Source: Propionibacteriales bacterium
GTDB taxonomy: Bacteria > Actinomycetota > Actinomycetes > Propionibacteriales > Nocardioidaceae
Assembly: GCA_009377795.1 (NCBI GenBank)
Contig: WHTJ01000039.1
Coordinates: 1 to 40,393 of the forward strand
Length of the DNA: 40,393 nucleotides
Direction: 5' to 3'
The notes under the pieces were generated by a model. It was not told where the DNA came from and searched no databases. It saw only the letters and a list, made by a program, of their open reading frames with translations. Position numbers and translations under genes: made by a program. Below are positions 27,993 to 35,083 of the stretch, in pieces. Within the stretch, counting starts at the first letter, position 1. The number at the start of each line of letters is the position of its first letter.

Positions 27993-28066
27993 GCGATCAA
28001 CCTCCCCATGTGCCGATTGGACGCAGCCCGCGGCGCACGGGTTCCGGTCGACTTGAGCGGCCCCAG

Positions 28067-28072
28067 TACGGT
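28067..28072 (+). promoter_or_regulatory. Putative leaderless -10 box of the lipid kinase gene
   Basis: TACGGT fits TANNNT and ends six bases before ATG 28079. No Shine-Dalgarno is visible. The whole divergent gap to the beta-propeller gene is only 86 bp. Confidence 0.35.
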
Positions 28073-28078
28073 GCCGAC

Positions 28079-29050
28079 ATGGCGTCGACATCGAACGGCG
28101 GGATGCGGCGGCGACGTGCGGCCCTGGTGGTCAACACGCGTTCGCGGACCGGTGAGCAGACCTTCCGCGAGGCCCGCGAGCGGCTGGCGTCGTTGGGCGT
28201 GCCGCTGGACACGGCGTACGCCGTGCACGACCCGGCACGGATCCCGGAGACGGTGCACGGGGTGCTCAACGAGGGTTGCGATCTGATCGTCGTCGGTGGT
28301 GGTGACGGGACGGTCAGCTCGGTGGTGGACCTGCTGGCCCACCATCACGCCGTACTCGGGCTGTTGCCGCTGGGCACCGCGAACGATTTCGCCCGCACCC
28401 TGCAGATACCCGCGGATCCGGTGGCGGCGTGCGACACCCTGGCCAAGGGCAGGCTGGTGGACGTCGACCTGGGATTGGTCGGCGACAACTACTTCGTGAA
28501 CGTCGCCTCGATCGGGCTCGCGGTCGACGTGACCGGGGCCCTGTCACCGCGGTTGAAGAAACGGGCAGGAAGCCTGGCGTACCCGGTGGCCGCGCTGAAG
28601 GCGTTCCTCCGGCACCAGCCGTTCACCGCGCGGCTCACCTTCCCCGACGGCGACCACGAGCCGATGGAGCTCGACAACCTGCTGCAGGTCGCGGTGGGCA
28701 ACGGCCGCTTCTACGGTGGGGGGAACGTGGTGGCTCCCGACGCCGGCATCGACGACCAGACCCTCGACGTCTACGCGATCCAGAGGGGGCGGCACCGCGA
28801 CCTGCTCGGGGTCGCCCGCCACTTCAAGAGCGGCCACTTCGTCCGCAAGGAGAACGTCACCCATATCACGACCTCCCGGGTGGAGCTCGAAGCCGATCCC
28901 GCCCAGTCACTCAACATCGACGGAGAGGTGGTGGCCCGCACGCCACAGCAGGTCTCCGTGGCGCACAACGCACTCCGGGTCCTCGTACCGCAGGAATCGG
29001 CCGCCGCGCGCCTCGACGTCGAGCGCCCCCGAGATCGACCGCCTGGCTAG
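28079..29050 (+). CDS. Diacylglycerol kinase-like lipid kinase (YegS/DagK family)
   Basis: A 323-residue cytoplasmic protein. The nucleotide-binding motif LIVVGGGDGTVSSVVDLL and the downstream LGLLPLGTANDFARTLQIP are the two signatures of DAGK_cat. The C-terminal half carries LLQVAVGNGRFYGGG, VAPDAGIDDQTLDVYAI and LNIDGEVVARTP. It phosphorylates diacylglycerol or a related lipid at the inner membrane face using ATP. I chose the ATG start at 28079 rather than an upstream one because VVNTRSRTG should lie close to the N-terminus. The stop overlaps that of the convergent MFS gene within CTAG. Confidence 0.92.
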   Translation: MASTSNGGMRRRRAALVVNTRSRTGEQTFREARERLASLGVPLDTAYAVHDPARIPETVHGVLNEGCDLIVVGGGDGTVSSVVDLLAHHHAVLGLLPLGTANDFARTLQIPADPVAACDTLAKGRLVDVDLGLVGDNYFVNVASIGLAVDVTGALSPRLKKRAGSLAYPVAALKAFLRHQPFTARLTFPDGDHEPMELDNLLQVAVGNGRFYGGGNVVAPDAGIDDQTLDVYAIQRGRHRDLLGVARHFKSGHFVRKENVTHITTSRVELEADPAQSLNIDGEVVARTPQQVSVAHNALRVLVPQESAAARLDVERPRDRPPG

Positions 29051-30303
29051 CGGCGCGTCTCGTACATGCGAACCGCGACGAGGAGTGCGGCGACGGCCGT
29101 GATGGCGGCGGCGGCCCAGACGGCGGCTCGCAGGCCCCATAGGTCGGCGACCACCCCGCCCATGAGTGCGCCGACGGCGTACCCGCCGTCCCGCCAGAGC
29201 CGGTAGACGCCGACGGCGCGGCCGCGCCATTCCGGGTGCGCGACGTCGCCGATCACGGCGAGCAGCGTCGGGTAGACCATCGCGGTGCCGGCGCCCAGCA
29301 GGACGGTCGCCAGAACCCACGAGCTGAAGGTGTCGGCGGTCGCGATCAACGCGAGTGCGGCGGCCTGGGTGACCATGCCGCCGGTGATCAGGTGCTTGCG
29401 GCCCCATCGGTCCGACAGTGGCCCGGAGATGAGTTGTCCGACTCCCCACACGGCCGGGTACAGAGCGAAGAGCACGCCGATGCGGTCTACGGACGTGCCC
29501 GTGCTGGCGAACAGAAGCGGGAACAGCCCCCAGGCAAGGCCGAAGTTGAGGTTGTTGACCATGCCGGCGTGGCTGGCCGATGACAGCGCGGGCTCGTTGA
29601 GACTGGTGAGCGCGAAGACCTGGCGGCTGGTCAACCCGGCGTGCAGGTGGTCGTGGCGTCCGTCGGTGCGGCCGGTGTGCTGAGTGGCCTCGAGTCGGGC
29701 ATGGTCACGGGTCTCGCGGACCGCGAGCGCCGAGAGGCCGAGGCCGAGGGCCACATAGGACAGGCCGAGCAGGAACGGGGCCGGGCGGAGCCCGTAGCGG
29801 GCCCCCAGGTAGCCCGCGAGCAGGGCGGTGAGGGCGACCGCGCCGTAGCCCGCGGCCTCGTTGAGCCCCATGGCGAGGCCACGTTGCCTCGGCCCGGCGA
29901 GATCGATCTTCATGATGACTGTGGTGGACCACGTCAGGCCCTGGTTGATGCCGAGCAGCACGTTGGCGGCGACGACCCAGTCCCAGGTCGGCGCCCAGAT
30001 CAGCATCACCGGCACCGGCACCGCGATGATCCAACCCACCAGGAGTACGGGTTTGCGGCCGAAGCGGTCCGACCAGGTGCCGGCGAAGTAGTTGGTCGCC
30101 GCCTTCGTGACGCCGAACGCGAGCACATAGGTGAACAGGAAGGTGTAGCCGCTCAGCCCGTACTCCCGCTCCGCCAGCAGCGGAAGCACGGTCTGTTCCT
30201 GCCCGACCATGCCGCCCACCAGCGCGTTGACCGCGACCAGCAGGCTGAACTGGGCGAGGTTGGCGCGCAGCCCCAACCGCGGAACGGGTCTGGTTCCGGT
30301 CAT
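29047..30303 (-). CDS. MFS transporter coupled to the sulfur gene cluster
   Basis: A 418-residue 12-helix major facilitator protein with FAGTWSDRFGRKPVLLVGWI (motif A), NVLLGINQGLTWSTTVIMKI in helix 4 and SGPLSDRWGRKHLITGGMVT as the second motif A copy. It overlaps the MBL-rhodanese gene by four bases (ATGA), so it is translated from the same mRNA and probably serves the same process. The substrate could be a sulfur compound or a toxic anion; nothing in the sequence decides. Its stop shares CTAG with the convergent lipid kinase gene. Confidence 0.88.
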   Translation of the reverse strand: MTGTRPVPRLGLRANLAQFSLLVAVNALVGGMVGQEQTVLPLLAEREYGLSGYTFLFTYVLAFGVTKAATNYFAGTWSDRFGRKPVLLVGWIIAVPVPVMLIWAPTWDWVVAANVLLGINQGLTWSTTVIMKIDLAGPRQRGLAMGLNEAAGYGAVALTALLAGYLGARYGLRPAPFLLGLSYVALGLGLSALAVRETRDHARLEATQHTGRTDGRHDHLHAGLTSRQVFALTSLNEPALSSASHAGMVNNLNFGLAWGLFPLLFASTGTSVDRIGVLFALYPAVWGVGQLISGPLSDRWGRKHLITGGMVTQAAALALIATADTFSSWVLATVLLGAGTAMVYPTLLAVIGDVAHPEWRGRAVGVYRLWRDGGYAVGALMGGVVADLWGLRAAVWAAAAITAVAALLVAVRMYETRR

Positions 30304-31661
30304 GCGCCGGTTTCCAGGGTCTCTCCCGTCGTACGCGCCCAGTCGTCGGGGCCGCCCCGCAGCACCGCGAGACTCCGGTGCCCCGCCCGCTTCAACAGGC
30401 TGGCCGCGCCCATCGCTCGCTCACCGTGCCCGCACATCACCATCAACGGCTGTCGCGGCAGCTCATCCGTACGGCGGGGGAGGTCCCCGAGTTCGATGTG
30501 GCGGGCGCCGGGGATATGCCCGGCGGCGTACTCCGACGTCTGGCGGATGTCCAGCACCCGGCCGGCATCGACCTGGTCGGGGCCGACCAGACGGGTGCTG
30601 GCGATGGGCTGCCGTTCGGCGAACCAGGCGTCCATGCCGCCCGCGACCTCGCCGGCGATGTTGCGGTAGCCGATCTTGGTGGCCTGCCAGGCGATCTCTG
30701 CCGGATCCTGGTCGTCGCCGCGCACGATGACCAACGGCCTGTCCTGCGAGGTGAGCCAGCCCAACCACGAGGCGAACGCGGGCCGCAGCGGGATGGACAA
30801 CGCCCCCGGCACGTGGGCCGCCGCGAAGTCGGCGACCGGGCGCGCGTCCACCAGCTCCGCGCCGTCGGCCAGCATCGAGCGCACCTCACCGACGCCGAGC
30901 GGCGCCAGTGCCGGATCCTCATCGAGAACGGCGGGCCCATGGCGATTGACCTCGGCCAGGCGCAAGAAGTACGGCGGGAACGTGCCCAGTGAGTCCATCA
31001 GCGTGGTCACGAAGGCGTCTTCGTCGGCGACGCGCAGCAGTGGGTTCGTCGACTTCTCCCGGCCGATGGTGCTGGTGCGCTCGGTGCCGGGCGGGGCAGA
31101 GCAGAACGACCCCGCGCCATGTGTCGGCCACACGGCCACCTCGTCCGGCACGGCGGCCAGCCTGCGCAGCGACGCGTACTGCTGACGGGCCAGCGCCTCG
31201 GTCTGGTCCGGGGCCACGAGGTCGGTACGAGCGGCCGAACCCACCAGCAGGGACCCGCCGGTGAACACCCCGACCGGGCGGTCGCCGTCCAGCAGCAGGA
31301 ACGAGACATGCTCATGGGTGTGCCCAGGAGTGGCAAGGGTCCGCAGCCGCAGGCCACCGAGGTCGACCTCCTCGCCGTCGTGCAGGCCGGTGTGCGGGAA
31401 CTCCCGACCGCCCGTGGCCGATGCCAATATCCGCGTCCCCTCGGTCGCGGCGAGCTGGCGGGTCCCGGAGACGAAGTCGGCATGCAGGTGGGTGTCGGCG
31501 GCGAAGGCCACCGTCAGACCACGACCGCGCGCGACCCGCCGGGCCATCCGCAGATCGAGACTGACATCGACCACCAGAGCTCGACCATCGCCGAGGTCGA
31601 CGAGGTACGCGGAGTTGCCCAACCCCTCGTCGATGAGCGGTACGACCTCGACCTCGGCCAT
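30300..31661 (-). CDS. MBL-fold / double-rhodanese protein (persulfide dioxygenase-like)
   Basis: A 453-residue cytoplasmic protein. Residues 1-240 are a metallo-beta-lactamase domain of the ETHE1/persulfide-dioxygenase type, with ADTHLHADFVSGTRQL (H58, H60, D62), TPGHTHEH and WPTHGAGSFC. Two rhodanese domains follow. The first (about 260-340, VDARPVADFAAAHVPGALSI) has VRGDDQ where the active-site loop should be and lacks the cysteine. The second (about 360-450) has catalytic C410 in VMCGHGERAMGAASLL. Such proteins handle sulfane sulfur, oxidising persulfides or moving sulfur to acceptors. A GAGGAGG site precedes ATG 31661. It is the first gene of the minus arm of the divergent cluster. Confidence 0.9.
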   Translation of the reverse strand: MAEVEVVPLIDEGLGNSAYLVDLGDGRALVVDVSLDLRMARRVARGRGLTVAFAADTHLHADFVSGTRQLAATEGTRILASATGGREFPHTGLHDGEEVDLGGLRLRTLATPGHTHEHVSFLLLDGDRPVGVFTGGSLLVGSAARTDLVAPDQTEALARQQYASLRRLAAVPDEVAVWPTHGAGSFCSAPPGTERTSTIGREKSTNPLLRVADEDAFVTTLMDSLGTFPPYFLRLAEVNRHGPAVLDEDPALAPLGVGEVRSMLADGAELVDARPVADFAAAHVPGALSIPLRPAFASWLGWLTSQDRPLVIVRGDDQDPAEIAWQATKIGYRNIAGEVAGGMDAWFAERQPIASTRLVGPDQVDAGRVLDIRQTSEYAAGHIPGARHIELGDLPRRTDELPRQPLMVMCGHGERAMGAASLLKRAGHRSLAVLRGGPDDWARTTGETLETGA

Positions 31662-31690
31662 CTGGGTCCTCCTCGTCTCGGAGTGGGGCG

Positions 31691-31734
31691 TTGTCTCCCA
31701 CCGTCTGGTATCCTACAGTAATCCATAGATGATT
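31691..31734 (+). promoter_or_regulatory. Divergent promoter and palindromic operator of the sulfur cluster
   Basis: TTGTCT (31691-31696) and TACAGT (31714-31719) are exactly 17 bases apart, a good promoter for the ArsR gene. Over the expected start point lies AATCCATAGATGATT (31720-31734), an imperfect palindrome AATCcAT-ag-ATgATT in unusually AT-rich DNA. It is the natural binding site for the ArsR-family product. On the minus strand, TAGGAT (31715-31710) could be the -10 of the MBL-rhodanese gene, so one site could control both arms. Confidence 0.55.
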
Positions 31735-31745
31735 GGAGAATATCG

Positions 31746-32408
31746 GTGGGCGACCGGGATGCGAAGACGGCTCTGTTCGACCAGTTCGCCCGCGTCGGCA
31801 AGGCGCTGGGCAGCGGCAAACGTCTGGAACTGCTGGATCTCCTGGCCCAGGGTGAGCGCACTGTCGAGTCGCTCGCACGTACCGCCGGGCTGGGTCTGAC
31901 CACGGCGTCGGCCCACCTGCAGACCCTCAAACGGGCCAACCTGGTGACCACGCGTCGCGAGGGCACCAAGATCCACTATCGGCTCGCCGGCCCGGACGTG
32001 GCCGCGCTGTACGCACTACTACGGTCCGTGGCCAACGAGCACCTCGCCGACGTCGAGGCCGCCCGCACCGCCTACCTCGGGTCGGACATCGACCAGGTCA
32101 CCCGCGACGAACTGCTGCGGCGGGTTCGCTCCGGGCAGGTCGCCATGATCGATGTACGCCCGCGCGAGGAGTACGCCGCCGCGCACATACCCGGCGCGGT
32201 GTCCATCCCGTTGGACGAGCTTCCCGAACGGCTGGCGGACATACCCGCCGATCAGGAGGTCGTCGCGTACTGCCGCGGCGCCTACTGCGTACTCGCCCAC
32301 GACGCCGTCCGTCTCCTCACCGCCAAGGGACGACCCGCCCGGCGCCTGGCCGACGGTATGCTCGAGTGGCGCCTGGCCGACCTCCCCATCGAGGAGGGTG
32401 TCGCGTGA
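31746..32408 (+). CDS. ArsR-family regulator fused to a rhodanese domain
   Basis: A 220-residue fusion. Residues 10-95 are a winged helix-turn-helix (SLARTAGLGLTTASAHLQTL, LVTTRREGTKIHYRL). Residues 118-215 are a rhodanese domain with the loop VVAYCRGAYCVLAHDAV; cysteines are C176 and C181. The DNA-binding domain itself has no cysteine, so sensing most likely happens on the rhodanese cysteines (inference: a persulfide on C176, possibly a disulfide or trisulfide with C181). The start GTG 31746 has GGAGA seven bases upstream. It overlaps the desulfurase gene by four bases (GTGA) and faces the MBL-rhodanese gene. Confidence 0.92.
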   Translation: MGDRDAKTALFDQFARVGKALGSGKRLELLDLLAQGERTVESLARTAGLGLTTASAHLQTLKRANLVTTRREGTKIHYRLAGPDVAALYALLRSVANEHLADVEAARTAYLGSDIDQVTRDELLRRVRSGQVAMIDVRPREEYAAAHIPGAVSIPLDELPERLADIPADQEVVAYCRGAYCVLAHDAVRLLTAKGRPARRLADGMLEWRLADLPIEEGVA

Positions 32409-33658
32409 CCGAGCACGGCCCGTCCGGCCCGCACCCGGGGCTGCGGAGCGGGCAGATCTACCTCGACTACAACGGCACGACACCGGTGGACCCGCGCGTG
32501 GTCGACGCGATGCTGCCGTACCTGCGCGAACACTTCGGCAACCCGTCGAGCACCCACCACTACGGGCAGGAGCCTCGGCACGCGCTGGCCCGGGCGCGTG
32601 ACCAGCTGGCCGGGCTCGTCGGCGGGACCGCGGACGAGATCACCTTCACCGCAAGCGGGTCCGAGGCGGACGCGCTCGCCATCCGCGGCGCGGTCCTCGC
32701 CGGCCGTCTCGACGGCGCGCACATCATTACGCAAGACACCGAGCACCCCGCCGTGCTCGAGACCTGCCGCAGCCTGCAGCGTCTCCACGGTGTCGACGTC
32801 ACGTACCTGCCCGTCGACCAGCATGGGCGGGTCGACCCGCAGGCGGTCGCCGATGCCATCACGGCCAGGACGACGCTCGTGTCGATCATGTTCGCCAACA
32901 ACGAGACCGGCACCCTGCAACCGGTCCGGGAAATCGCCGAGGTGGCCCACCGGCACGGCGTCCTCGTACACACCGACGCCGCCCAAGGCCTCGGCAAGAT
33001 GCCCGTCGACGTGCGCCGACTCGGCGTCGACCTGCTCACCGTCGTGGGGCACAAGATGTACGCGCCCAAGGGCATCGGCGCCCTGTGGGTACGTACCGGC
33101 GGCCGGCTCGAACCCATCGCTTACGGCGGCGGCCAGGAACGCGACCTGCGCGCCGGCACCGAGAACGTCGCACTCGCCGTCGCCCTCGGCGCCGCGGCCG
33201 AGCTCTCTGCCGCCGACCTCACCACGGGTGAGGCCGACCGGTTGCGCGGCCTCCGCGACGAGCTCAGCCACCGACTCGCCGACCGGCTGCCCGGCCGGGT
33301 GCGGCTCAACGGCCATCCCACCGAGCGGTTGCCGAACACCGTCAACTTCACCATCGCCAGTCCGGCCGGCGACCAGCTCCTCGCCGCCATTCCGGGCATC
33401 GCCGCCTCCACCGGCTCGGCCTGCCACGCCGGCTCGACGGAACCATCGCCGGTACTCGCGGCGATGGCCCGCGACCCGTCCTCGACCGCCCACGAGGGCG
33501 ACCGCGTTCCATCGGCGATCCGGTTCAGCCTCGGCCGCTGGACCACTGCGGACGACATCTCCCGCGCCGCCACGCTCATCGCCGAGGGCGCGACGGTCAC
33601 CAGGCAGGATTCGAGGCCCAGCGACGGGTTGGCGCCCGCCACACCGAGCGGACCCTGA
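32405..33658 (+). CDS. Cysteine desulfurase, NifS/IscS-like
   Basis: A 417-residue PLP enzyme that takes sulfur from cysteine as an enzyme persulfide, giving alanine. It contains YLDYNGTTPVDPRVVDAM, the phosphate-binding TASGSEADALAIRGA, DTEHPAVLETCRSLQ, FANNETGTLQPV, HTDAAQGLGKM, the PLP lysine K217 in VVGHKMYAPKGIGALWV and the active cysteine C340 in STGSACHAGS. A DPSSTAHEGDRVPSAIRFSL stretch and a proline-rich tail follow. GTG 32405 overlaps the regulator stop. No iscU or other Fe-S assembly genes are adjacent, so a role in making or moving sulfane sulfur within this cluster is more likely than general Fe-S assembly (inference). Confidence 0.93.
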   Translation: MTEHGPSGPHPGLRSGQIYLDYNGTTPVDPRVVDAMLPYLREHFGNPSSTHHYGQEPRHALARARDQLAGLVGGTADEITFTASGSEADALAIRGAVLAGRLDGAHIITQDTEHPAVLETCRSLQRLHGVDVTYLPVDQHGRVDPQAVADAITARTTLVSIMFANNETGTLQPVREIAEVAHRHGVLVHTDAAQGLGKMPVDVRRLGVDLLTVVGHKMYAPKGIGALWVRTGGRLEPIAYGGGQERDLRAGTENVALAVALGAAAELSAADLTTGEADRLRGLRDELSHRLADRLPGRVRLNGHPTERLPNTVNFTIASPAGDQLLAAIPGIAASTGSACHAGSTEPSPVLAAMARDPSSTAHEGDRVPSAIRFSLGRWTTADDISRAATLIAEGATVTRQDSRPSDGLAPATPSGP

Positions 33659-33697: not shown

Positions 33698-35083
33698 CTA
33701 CAGCGATCCCCGCGCCCACGGGCCGGTGATCGCGAACGTGATGCCAGGGCTTTGCGCGTTGACGAAGAGCCAGTTGCCGTTCTTCGGCTCGAAGGTCGAC
33801 CCGCACCACTCGGATCCGCGGTAGTTGCCGGGGGCCACGGACTTGCCCGGCACGCCGCCCGCGGGGATCTCGACGTCGTTGAGCGCGAACGGGAAGATCT
33901 CCCCATCGGTGGTCAGCCCGTGCACGTACTCTCCCTGGCTGCCGTCCTCACATAGCACGATCCCACCGCGTGGGCTGACGCAGATGTTGTCCGGGTTGTT
34001 GAGCACCGACGCGTCAGGGGAGGCGAACAACACTCGCATGGTGTCCATCTTCGGGTCGTACTCGAACACCTGGCCCTGGCCGGTCGGCCCGCCACTGGTC
34101 GAGACGATGTACACCCGATCGTTGCCCCACCACGCACCCTCGAGCCTGCGGAACACCGCCGCACCCTTGGCCTGGCCCTGCAGCGCCGGCCGGGTCTCAC
34201 CGGCGGCGTAGTCGGGGTTGTCGATGGTGACCCAGGAGGTGAAGTAGTCCTTCCCGGTGCCGTCCTCATAGGTGGTGTACGACGACCCGTCCGTGGTCTC
34301 GATCAGAAGCATCTGCAGCTCGCCACCGTCGTGCAACTTGCCGCGCGTCTTCGGGATGTAGCGGTAGAAGCCGGACGGGGTGGCATCCTCGGTGAGATAC
34401 ACGATGCCGGTGTTCGGGTCGACCGCGACCGCCTCGTGGCTGAACCGGCCCATCTGACGCAGCGGACGAGGGTCGCCCGGCTTGTCGAAGGGCACCTCGA
34501 AGACGTACCCGTGCCGCGTACCGTCCTCGGCGATCTCGGTGGTCTCCTCACAGGTCAGCCACGTGCCCCACGGGGTGGGTCCGCCCGCACAGTTCCGGAT
34601 AGTGCCGGACAGGCTTGCCCACGACTCGGTGAACTTTCCGGCCTTCGGGTCGAACACCAGGTTCGTGGTGCCGCCGCGAGCGTTCGGGTTGTACGCCGGC
34701 GAGGTGAACGCACCGGAGTAGCCGCCGAGCTCGTGGTTGCGTACGAGCGCGATCTTGCCGTCTGGCCGGCGGAACGCGGCCATCCCGTCGTGTGCGGCGG
34801 GCGTGGCAACCCCGTCCGACATCACGTCACCGGTCCAGCCGTACGAGATGTACTCGAAGCCCTTCGGCAACGCCAGGAGCTCCAGCCCGGTGGTCTGGTC
34901 CTTGACCGGGGCCAGCGGTCCGTAGTCTGGGCTCTGCTGAACCTTCGCCATCGGCGCTGCCCCCGCCGTCCTGGCGCCCAGTGCCTCCAGCGGACCCACC
35001 GCGGCCAGCGCGGCCACACCGGCCAGGCCTCCCTTGAGGAACCCTCTGCGTTCTACCTCGGGATTCAATTGCTCATGTGCCAT
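33698..35083 (-). CDS. Tat-exported PhoX-like alkaline phosphatase (DUF839)
   Basis: A 461-residue secreted protein. The N-terminus has a twin-arginine signal (VERRGFLKGGLAGVAALAAV) with cleavage probably after GARTAGAA. Body motifs fit PhoX/DUF839: LVRNHELGGYSGAF, RNCAGGPTPWGTWLTCEETT, GRFSHEAVAVDPNTGIVYLT, PDNICVSPRGGIVLCEDG, and EWCGSTFEPKNGNWLFVNAQ. In characterised PhoX these acidic and cysteine-containing loops hold calcium and iron. It would release phosphate from organic esters outside the cell. A GGAGGT site precedes ATG 35083. I recognise no PHO box. Confidence 0.9.
   Translation of the reverse strand: MAHEQLNPEVERRGFLKGGLAGVAALAAVGPLEALGARTAGAAPMAKVQQSPDYGPLAPVKDQTTGLELLALPKGFEYISYGWTGDVMSDGVATPAAHDGMAAFRRPDGKIALVRNHELGGYSGAFTSPAYNPNARGGTTNLVFDPKAGKFTESWASLSGTIRNCAGGPTPWGTWLTCEETTEIAEDGTRHGYVFEVPFDKPGDPRPLRQMGRFSHEAVAVDPNTGIVYLTEDATPSGFYRYIPKTRGKLHDGGELQMLLIETTDGSSYTTYEDGTGKDYFTSWVTIDNPDYAAGETRPALQGQAKGAAVFRRLEGAWWGNDRVYIVSTSGGPTGQGQVFEYDPKMDTMRVLFASPDASVLNNPDNICVSPRGGIVLCEDGSQGEYVHGLTTDGEIFPFALNDVEIPAGGVPGKSVAPGNYRGSEWCGSTFEPKNGNWLFVNAQSPGITFAITGPWARGSL

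Follow-up and report, generated by a model that had tools for sequence, protein, structure and literature searches.

How does an ArsR-type repressor sense sulfur when its DNA-binding half holds no cysteine at all? The question is raised by four genes in a stretch of 40,393 nucleotides (the window: contig WHTJ01000039.1 of assembly GCA_009377795.1, from a Propionibacteriales bacterium), in which a metallo-beta-lactamase (MBL)-rhodanese enzyme and a major facilitator superfamily (MFS) transporter are encoded on one strand, and an ArsR-rhodanese fusion and a cysteine desulfurase on the other. An initial annotation, made from the letters alone, had the desulfurase making a persulfide, the fused regulator reading it on C176/C181, the MBL-rhodanese removing it and the transporter exporting a product; this interpretation is supported in part and weakened in part. 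Since the module is conserved, its neighbours are of the sulfur type, the only conserved cysteines of the regulator lie in its rhodanese loop and the dyad in front of its gene is conserved as well, the likeliest reading is that the regulator is a sensor with its own rhodanese domain in place of a cysteine pair in the helix-turn-helix (HTH). Comparison of related loci establishes, at the level of sequence, the gene grouping, the invariant cysteine pair, the substitution in the loop and the conserved dyad. That the whole works as a self-regulated sulfane-sulfur stress divergon, whose repressor senses through a remodelled rhodanese domain, is in our judgement somewhat probable.

We start with the fusion protein itself. 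An ArsR/SmtB HTH domain (about residues 10-95), recognized by HTH_5 and HTH_20 in Pfam and above cut-off by NF033788 in NCBIfam (a general metalloregulator model), is followed by a rhodanese domain (about residues 116-210; Pfam, 65 bits) with the active loop C176-R-G-A-Y-C181. These are the only two cysteines of the protein, none lying in the HTH half. All 81 aligned rows (the window protein and 80 relatives) have both of them, and no HTH column has a cysteine in more than 5 of the 81. The initial annotation had placed the pair in the rhodanese domain rather than the HTH, and the alignment bears this out; HTH cysteines as the sensor are ruled out. The loop usually reads CRGxxC, with exceptions that include CRDAQC (locus L083) and CEGPYC (one relative). 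The C-x4-C spacing is kept in 29/29 fusions of a wider sample of the phylum Actinomycetota, and both cysteines are kept in 21/21 rows drawn from Actinomycetota, Pseudomonadota, Deinococcota, Bacteroidota/Rhodothermota and Bacillota, where other cysteines are scattered.

The next question is "do other rhodanese domains carry this second cysteine?" The control consists of 43 distinct rhodanese domains from the organism's own genome and 19 relatives (the returned loci, not every rhodanese). An active cysteine is present in 36 of them, and the sixth loop position is Arg in 30, Thr in two and Cys in four. All four of the latter are ArsR-fused, namely the window fusion and three sites listed as fusions, as against none of 32 unfused Cys-type rhodaneses (Arg 30, Thr 2). 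The fused domain has the active-loop cysteine of a Cys-type rhodanese and lacks its arginine; judged by these alignments, it is a rhodanese that has swapped the loop arginine for a second thiol. In an AlphaFold2 model of the fusion (mean pLDDT 83.5, pTM 0.60), C176 falls in the loop that follows strand 171-174, and helix 178-193 contains C181. A Foldseek search with the model finds the ArsR half closest to 2kko/3gw2 (63-64% identity; the 2kko match covers 96 columns at 1.1 A) and matches the rhodanese half to 3tp9. We take 2kko/3gw2 to be the solved N-terminal fragment of Mb0332, with Rv0324 as the presumed M. tuberculosis orthologue; full-length Rv0324 is said to carry a rhodanese domain, which would make it the same fusion.

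Where would such a regulator bind? We examine 70 intergenic regions, that of the window and those of 69 relatives, after exclusion of two of the 71 MBL loci (L028 with an intervening gene, L071 with a gap of more than 250 bp). All 70 contain TCCAW-N6-WTGGA, with ten of ten positions in 51 and nine of ten in 19, and in 62 the dyad ends 5-9 bp before the regulator start codon. In 45 regions the two W positions complement each other (A-T 27, T-A 18), as one would expect of a dyad. The GGAG of the right arm carries no independent weight, since this arm doubles as the ribosome site. Next to the left arm a TACAnT hexamer is frequent, and a consensus promoter and terminator scan of the control region gave none above threshold. 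The pattern TCCAWN6WTGGA occurs at three places in the organism's own 4.58-Mb genome, one of them at the module (a reversed control pattern occurs at two); a regulon beyond the locus would have the two other sites alone to go by. By its rarity in the genome and by the comparison of the intergenic regions, the dyad at the module is not a chance occurrence, and we regard its binding by the regulator as very probable. The operator intervals that had been proposed, 31691-31734 and 31700-31740, both overlap it.

A sister form of the dyad is found, on pattern matching, before some fusion genes of other phyla. The pattern ATTCMAW-N6-WTKGAAT was compared with 22 upstream regions, each against 300 shuffles; nine regions are reached by at most 1/300 shuffles and seven by 5-15. 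It is matched at 14/14 positions in Deinococcus (before the MBL gene of the operon), Hymenobacter and one L. plantarum plasmid, and at 13/14 in Methylocystis and Phaeobacter. As the pattern was written after viewing nine of the 22 regions, Roseibium (1/300) and a second L. plantarum (0/300) are the fairer strong tests. The remaining distant regions not viewed beforehand split into a middling group (Arthrobacter, Salinibacter, Azonexus) and one that fails (Allomeiothermus, Priestia, L. salivarius).

Does the module stay together? A scan of genome contigs with the window regulator gave 294 fusion relatives; the best 80 of these are the actinobacterial loci used here, and near kin are over-represented among them because they were picked in this way. 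The MBL-rhodanese and MFS genes both lie beside the fusion on the opposite strand in 70 of the 80; the remaining ten have MBL alone (1), MFS alone (5) or neither (4), the MFS gene being present in 75. A desulfurase of at least 300 bits lies within the fetched flanks of 36 loci and not in those of 44 (weaker matches, such as one of 120 bits in L038, were not counted). In 23 of the 36 it is the next gene behind the MFS gene; in 10 it follows the fusion immediately, which is the window arrangement, and in three it lies elsewhere. Some contigs end close to the loci, so gene absences are upper limits. The gene-neighbourhood check thus upholds the conserved grouping that had been expected for three genes and for the fourth in part only, and the desulfurase as an obligatory member is ruled out. 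In the wider phylum sample, 46 of 296 genomes carry the fusion; among 29 fetched fusion loci of other genomes, 25 show an MBL or MFS relative in the 1.5 kb covered on either side (MBL 12, MFS 16, both 3), and the corresponding control, MFS at MBL loci without the fusion, gives 0/22.

A few observations on these genomes may be added. At E of at most 1e-30 the fusion is found in 15 of 58 genomes, its own included, the best others having 67-69% identity and Pseudonocardiaceae 83%; the patchy spread and the higher identity in Pseudonocardiaceae suggest that the gene was gained horizontally. Amycolatopsis marina has a second fusion gene, 66% identical, right behind the first (L051 6792-7436). In five loci a TusA-like gene, with a TusA profile score just below cut-off, overlaps or closely follows the fusion or the desulfurase (e.g., L052 6618-7007).

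The features of the locus are collected in Table 1. The four open reading frames, their 4-bp overlaps (30300-30303 and 32405-32408) and the divergent region are as first described, and the domain assignments are upheld by Pfam and NCBIfam: MFS_1; Lactamase_B with two rhodanese stretches; HTH_5/HTH_20 with rhodanese; and Aminotran_5. The flanking genes have no evident link to the module by Pfam or NCBIfam.

Table 1. Features of the four-gene module, its control region and its flanks, in window coordinates.
Feature	Position	Strand	Description
Lipid kinase gene	28055-29050		flanking gene
MFS transporter gene	29047-30303	-	418 amino acids
MBL-rhodanese gene	30300-31661	-	453 amino acids; MBL fold and two rhodanese domains, of which the central one lacks the active Cys; key residues H58, H114, H118, C187, C410, Gly136
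Divergent control region	31662-31745		84 bp between the start codons
Putative regulator promoter	31691-31696, 31714-31719	+	TTGTCT, 17 bp, TACAGT; picked by eye
Putative -10 of MBL-MFS operon	31710-31715	-	TAGGAT; picked by eye
Operator-like dyad	31720-31739		core TCCAT-N6-TTGGA at 31722-31737; overlaps presumed transcription start and ribosome site of the regulator gene
ArsR-rhodanese gene	31746-32408	+	220 amino acids; GTG start
Cysteine desulfurase gene	32405-33658	+	417 amino acids; GTG start overlaps preceding stop; IscS/NifS type; pyridoxal phosphate lysine K217, active C340; optional module member
PhoX-like gene	33698-35083		flanking gene

We turn to the enzyme that the regulator would control. 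The MBL-rhodanese has the domain order of type III persulfide dioxygenase (PDO) and CstB over its full length, matching 3tp9 (E 2e-73) and 3r2u (E 1e-46), the latter presumably being CstB itself, and its C187 and C410 align to conserved cysteines. H58, H114, H118, C187 and Gly136 are invariant in 72/72 rows and C410 in the 71/71 that are readable. Unlike CstB and the type III enzymes, the window protein has Gly136 for the Asp iron ligand and His118 for Ser, which weakens the earlier view of it as an ordinary ETHE1-type enzyme. A wider set of MBLs (116 of 117 rows readable) gives positions 118/136 as His/Gly in 105, Ser/Asp in seven, His/His in three and His/Asp in one. His/Gly also occurs in one CsoR-type group, and other MBLs with TauE or CsoR nearby are Ser/Asp. 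From the paired exchange of Ser/Asp for His/Gly, H118 may take over as iron ligand in place of the Asp. The three His/His cases belong to Deinococcus, Methylocystis and Acidiphilium (L096, L105, L107), and in these a histidine-only metal site is possible. One paper (PMC6060420) gives the PDO iron ligands as two His and one Asp, states that Ala at the Asp ligand abolished the activity of the A. caldus PDO, and reports for type III enzymes the Phe at the third His of HxHxDH that the window MBL has too. We consider it likely that the MBL-rhodanese removes persulfide.

The role of the transporter is less firmly indicated. Its match to Pfam MFS_1 (E 4e-52) is a generic family match, none of the 25 listed of 55 NCBIfam matches reaches cut-off to name a specific family, and the closest solved chain is NorA (E 2e-9). 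The proposal that it exports a product is weakened by the generic match, and export of a sulfur product is in our judgement less likely than not. An MFS protein does appear in modules on Arthrobacter plasmids together with a CsoR regulator, a sulfur dioxygenase, rhodaneses and TauE, according to PMC6305408, which supports MFS as a part of such modules.

Matches that cover at least 80% of the fusion occur in 195 plasmid records, from which 20 loci were hand-picked for inspection. MBL and MFS genes are both in the same run in eight: Rhodococcus (two), S. mirabilis, Azotobacter, Deinococcus, Hydrogenophaga, Methylocystis and Acidiphilium. The S. mirabilis plasmid repeats the four-gene order of the window and adds a TusA gene, and in Methylocystis the fusion is encoded opposite to the MBL, MFS, DsrE and desulfurase genes, which share a strand. 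The MFS gene alone adjoins the fusion in Hymenobacter (with TauE, MBL, rhodanese and YeeE genes slightly upstream), Rubrobacter and Phaeobacter. Azonexus has DsrE and rhodanese genes near the fusion, Priestia a sulfurtransferase, thioredoxin and YtxJ, Salinibacter a thioredoxin gene about 1.5 kb off, and three lactobacilli thioredoxin and/or DsbA genes. The sulfur and thiol genes near fusions outside the actinobacterial set are DsrE, rhodanese, TauE, YeeE, TusA and desulfurase, with thioredoxin/DsbA in lactobacilli. Two side observations belong here. In Rubrobacter a merB gene lies about 4 kb from the fusion, and the Rhodococcus plasmid pRWAY03 carries an ArsR-rhodanese module beside a CsoR/TauE/MBL module (L093 5501-10386).

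How could these parts work together? In the resting state, as ArsR membership and the dyad suggest, a dimer of the ArsR-rhodanese protein would sit on the dyad over the presumed starts of both operons and repress them. When persulfide or polysulfide rises, C176, the rhodanese nucleophile, would accept a sulfur atom, and C181, standing at the usual position of the rhodanese arginine, would close on it, giving a disulfide or polysulfide bridge. This alteration of the C-terminal domain would be relayed to the HTH, with release from the DNA. The CstB-like MBL-rhodanese would then oxidize or transfer the sulfur, the transporter might export a sulfur product or a toxicant containing sulfur, and the desulfurase would be an accessory joined to either operon. 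That sulfane sulfur is sensed through C176/C181 seems to us, on balance, the better expectation.

Could the desulfurase instead be the origin of the signal, passing persulfide straight to the fused regulator, so that the module reads desulfurase flux and not sulfur from outside? Its gene overlaps that of the regulator, and K217 and C340, as expected of group I (IscS/NifS) enzymes, are kept in 35/35 module desulfurases; by NCBIfam the window protein is closest to NifS/IscS, below the cut-offs (TIGR03402, 424 bits against an equivalog cut-off of 531). In a tree, from which L016, L031, L035 and L084 were left out for an in-frame stop, the 35 stand apart from three paralogues of the organism's own genome (support 99/99, flagged for few outgroups and long branches), and the positions after MFS and after the fusion alternate several times. 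We read this as a single lineage, moving together with the module, that has switched operon. (C121 is seen in 33/35 and His341, after the active cysteine, in 34/35; the three paralogues have neither, one having no residue aligned at 341.) However, the 44 loci with no desulfurase in their fetched flanks retain the regulator, its cysteine pair and the operator, and beyond the actinobacterial set the gene is beside the fusion in only one of 15 annotated loci of other phyla (Methylocystis). Being co-transcribed with the repressor here, it would as its own inducer source create a positive feedback. This weakens the original proposal that the desulfurase makes the signal, which is now unlikely; more likely it is an accessory, for sulfur rerouting or Fe-S repair.

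The nature of the ligand can also be doubted, and several findings weigh against sulfane sulfur sensing or the scheme around it. The MBL, with glycine where the 2-His-1-Asp triad has its Asp, cannot be assured of persulfide oxidation; the model of the fusion is of low confidence over residues 206-220; the dyad is no better than shuffles in six of the 22 upstream regions, one of them upstream of the Deinococcus fusion gene, inside the operon; and three of the 20 plasmid loci (Roseibium, Arthrobacter U41, Allomeiothermus) have no sulfur or thiol neighbour seen nearby. The two cysteines could also bind arsenite or another soft metal. A metalloid sensor, with C176 and C181 binding As(III), Cd(II) or similar and the MFS protein exporting the metal or a conjugate, would agree with the ArsR/SmtB family, with the NCBIfam metalloregulator match, general as that model is, and with the arsenic-resistance gene directly upstream of the fusion on the Hydrogenophaga plasmid. 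Save for that plasmid, however, none of the 20 loci shows an ars operon immediately next to the fusion, the partner genes are sulfur enzymes and the two cysteines occupy a rhodanese loop and not the known ArsR metal sites, which leaves such a sensor quite unlikely. Somewhat less likely still is a sensor of thiol-reactive organosulfur or disulfide stress (thiosulfinates, organic polysulfides) that the MFS protein would export, the sulfane response being secondary. On the Lactobacillaceae plasmids (L108, L109, L110) the fusion adjoins thioredoxin, TrxB, DsbA and an FAD oxidoreductase in place of the MBL, kimchi or pickles are the source of several of the listed records, and a link to the organosulfur compounds of garlic is our guess; but the food link may be a mere sampling effect, and the actinobacterial and proteobacterial modules pair the fusion with MBL-rhodanese, DsrE or rhodanese.

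Returning to sulfane sulfur as the favoured signal, we compare the module with known systems. In the S. aureus CstR/CstB operon, a CsoR-type repressor controls an MBL-rhodanese enzyme and a TauE-type transporter for the removal of sulfane sulfur. With SqrR, BigR, YgaV and sHdrR the window regulator shares an ArsR HTH, a small repressor near persulfide-handling genes and two thiols as the likely switch. It differs in that SqrR/BigR-type regulators have their conserved cysteine pair inside the ArsR domain, whereas here the ArsR half is free of cysteine and the pair (its first member being residue 176) lies in the fused rhodanese. The BigR pair is Cys42-Cys108 (PMC9774590). The S. coelicolor circuit of ScCsoR, ScPDO, rhodanese and sulfite transporter responds to sulfane sulfur (PMC7533328) and likewise sets a repressor over an MBL-rhodanese enzyme and a transporter for sulfane sulfur removal. 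It uses a CsoR-type regulator and a TauE-type transporter, whereas the window has no CsoR-family regulator, an ArsR-rhodanese protein and an MFS transporter standing in these places; the CsoR/TauE/MBL module that adjoins the ArsR-rhodanese module on pRWAY03 resembles that circuit. In the open-access literature (subscription papers lay outside the search) we found no account of sulfur sensing by an ArsR-rhodanese fusion, no description of the signal of this regulator family, to which Rv0324 would belong, and no match for the term "ArsR-rhodanese"; Rv0324 is named in 59 papers, but in none together with rhodanese. It is possible, and we put it forward tentatively, that the fusions form a separate class of sulfur sensor in several phyla, in which a rhodanese has been turned into a dithiol switch on an ArsR head reading an ATTC(A/C)AW-N6-dyad, accompanied in actinobacteria by a persulfide-handling MBL whose iron site may consist of three histidines (H58, H114, H118).

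What would the finding mean? In the known ArsR-type sulfur sensors the two paired cysteines belong to the DNA-binding fold. If our reading is true, a rebuilt rhodanese active loop would be another route to persulfide sensing, one that spans actinobacteria, proteobacteria, deinococci, Bacteroidota and lactobacilli. The exchange of Ser/Asp for His/Gly in the partner MBL offers a second testable prediction, on the chemistry of the iron site. The first would be a testable ligand for a regulator family that would include the mycobacterial Rv0324.

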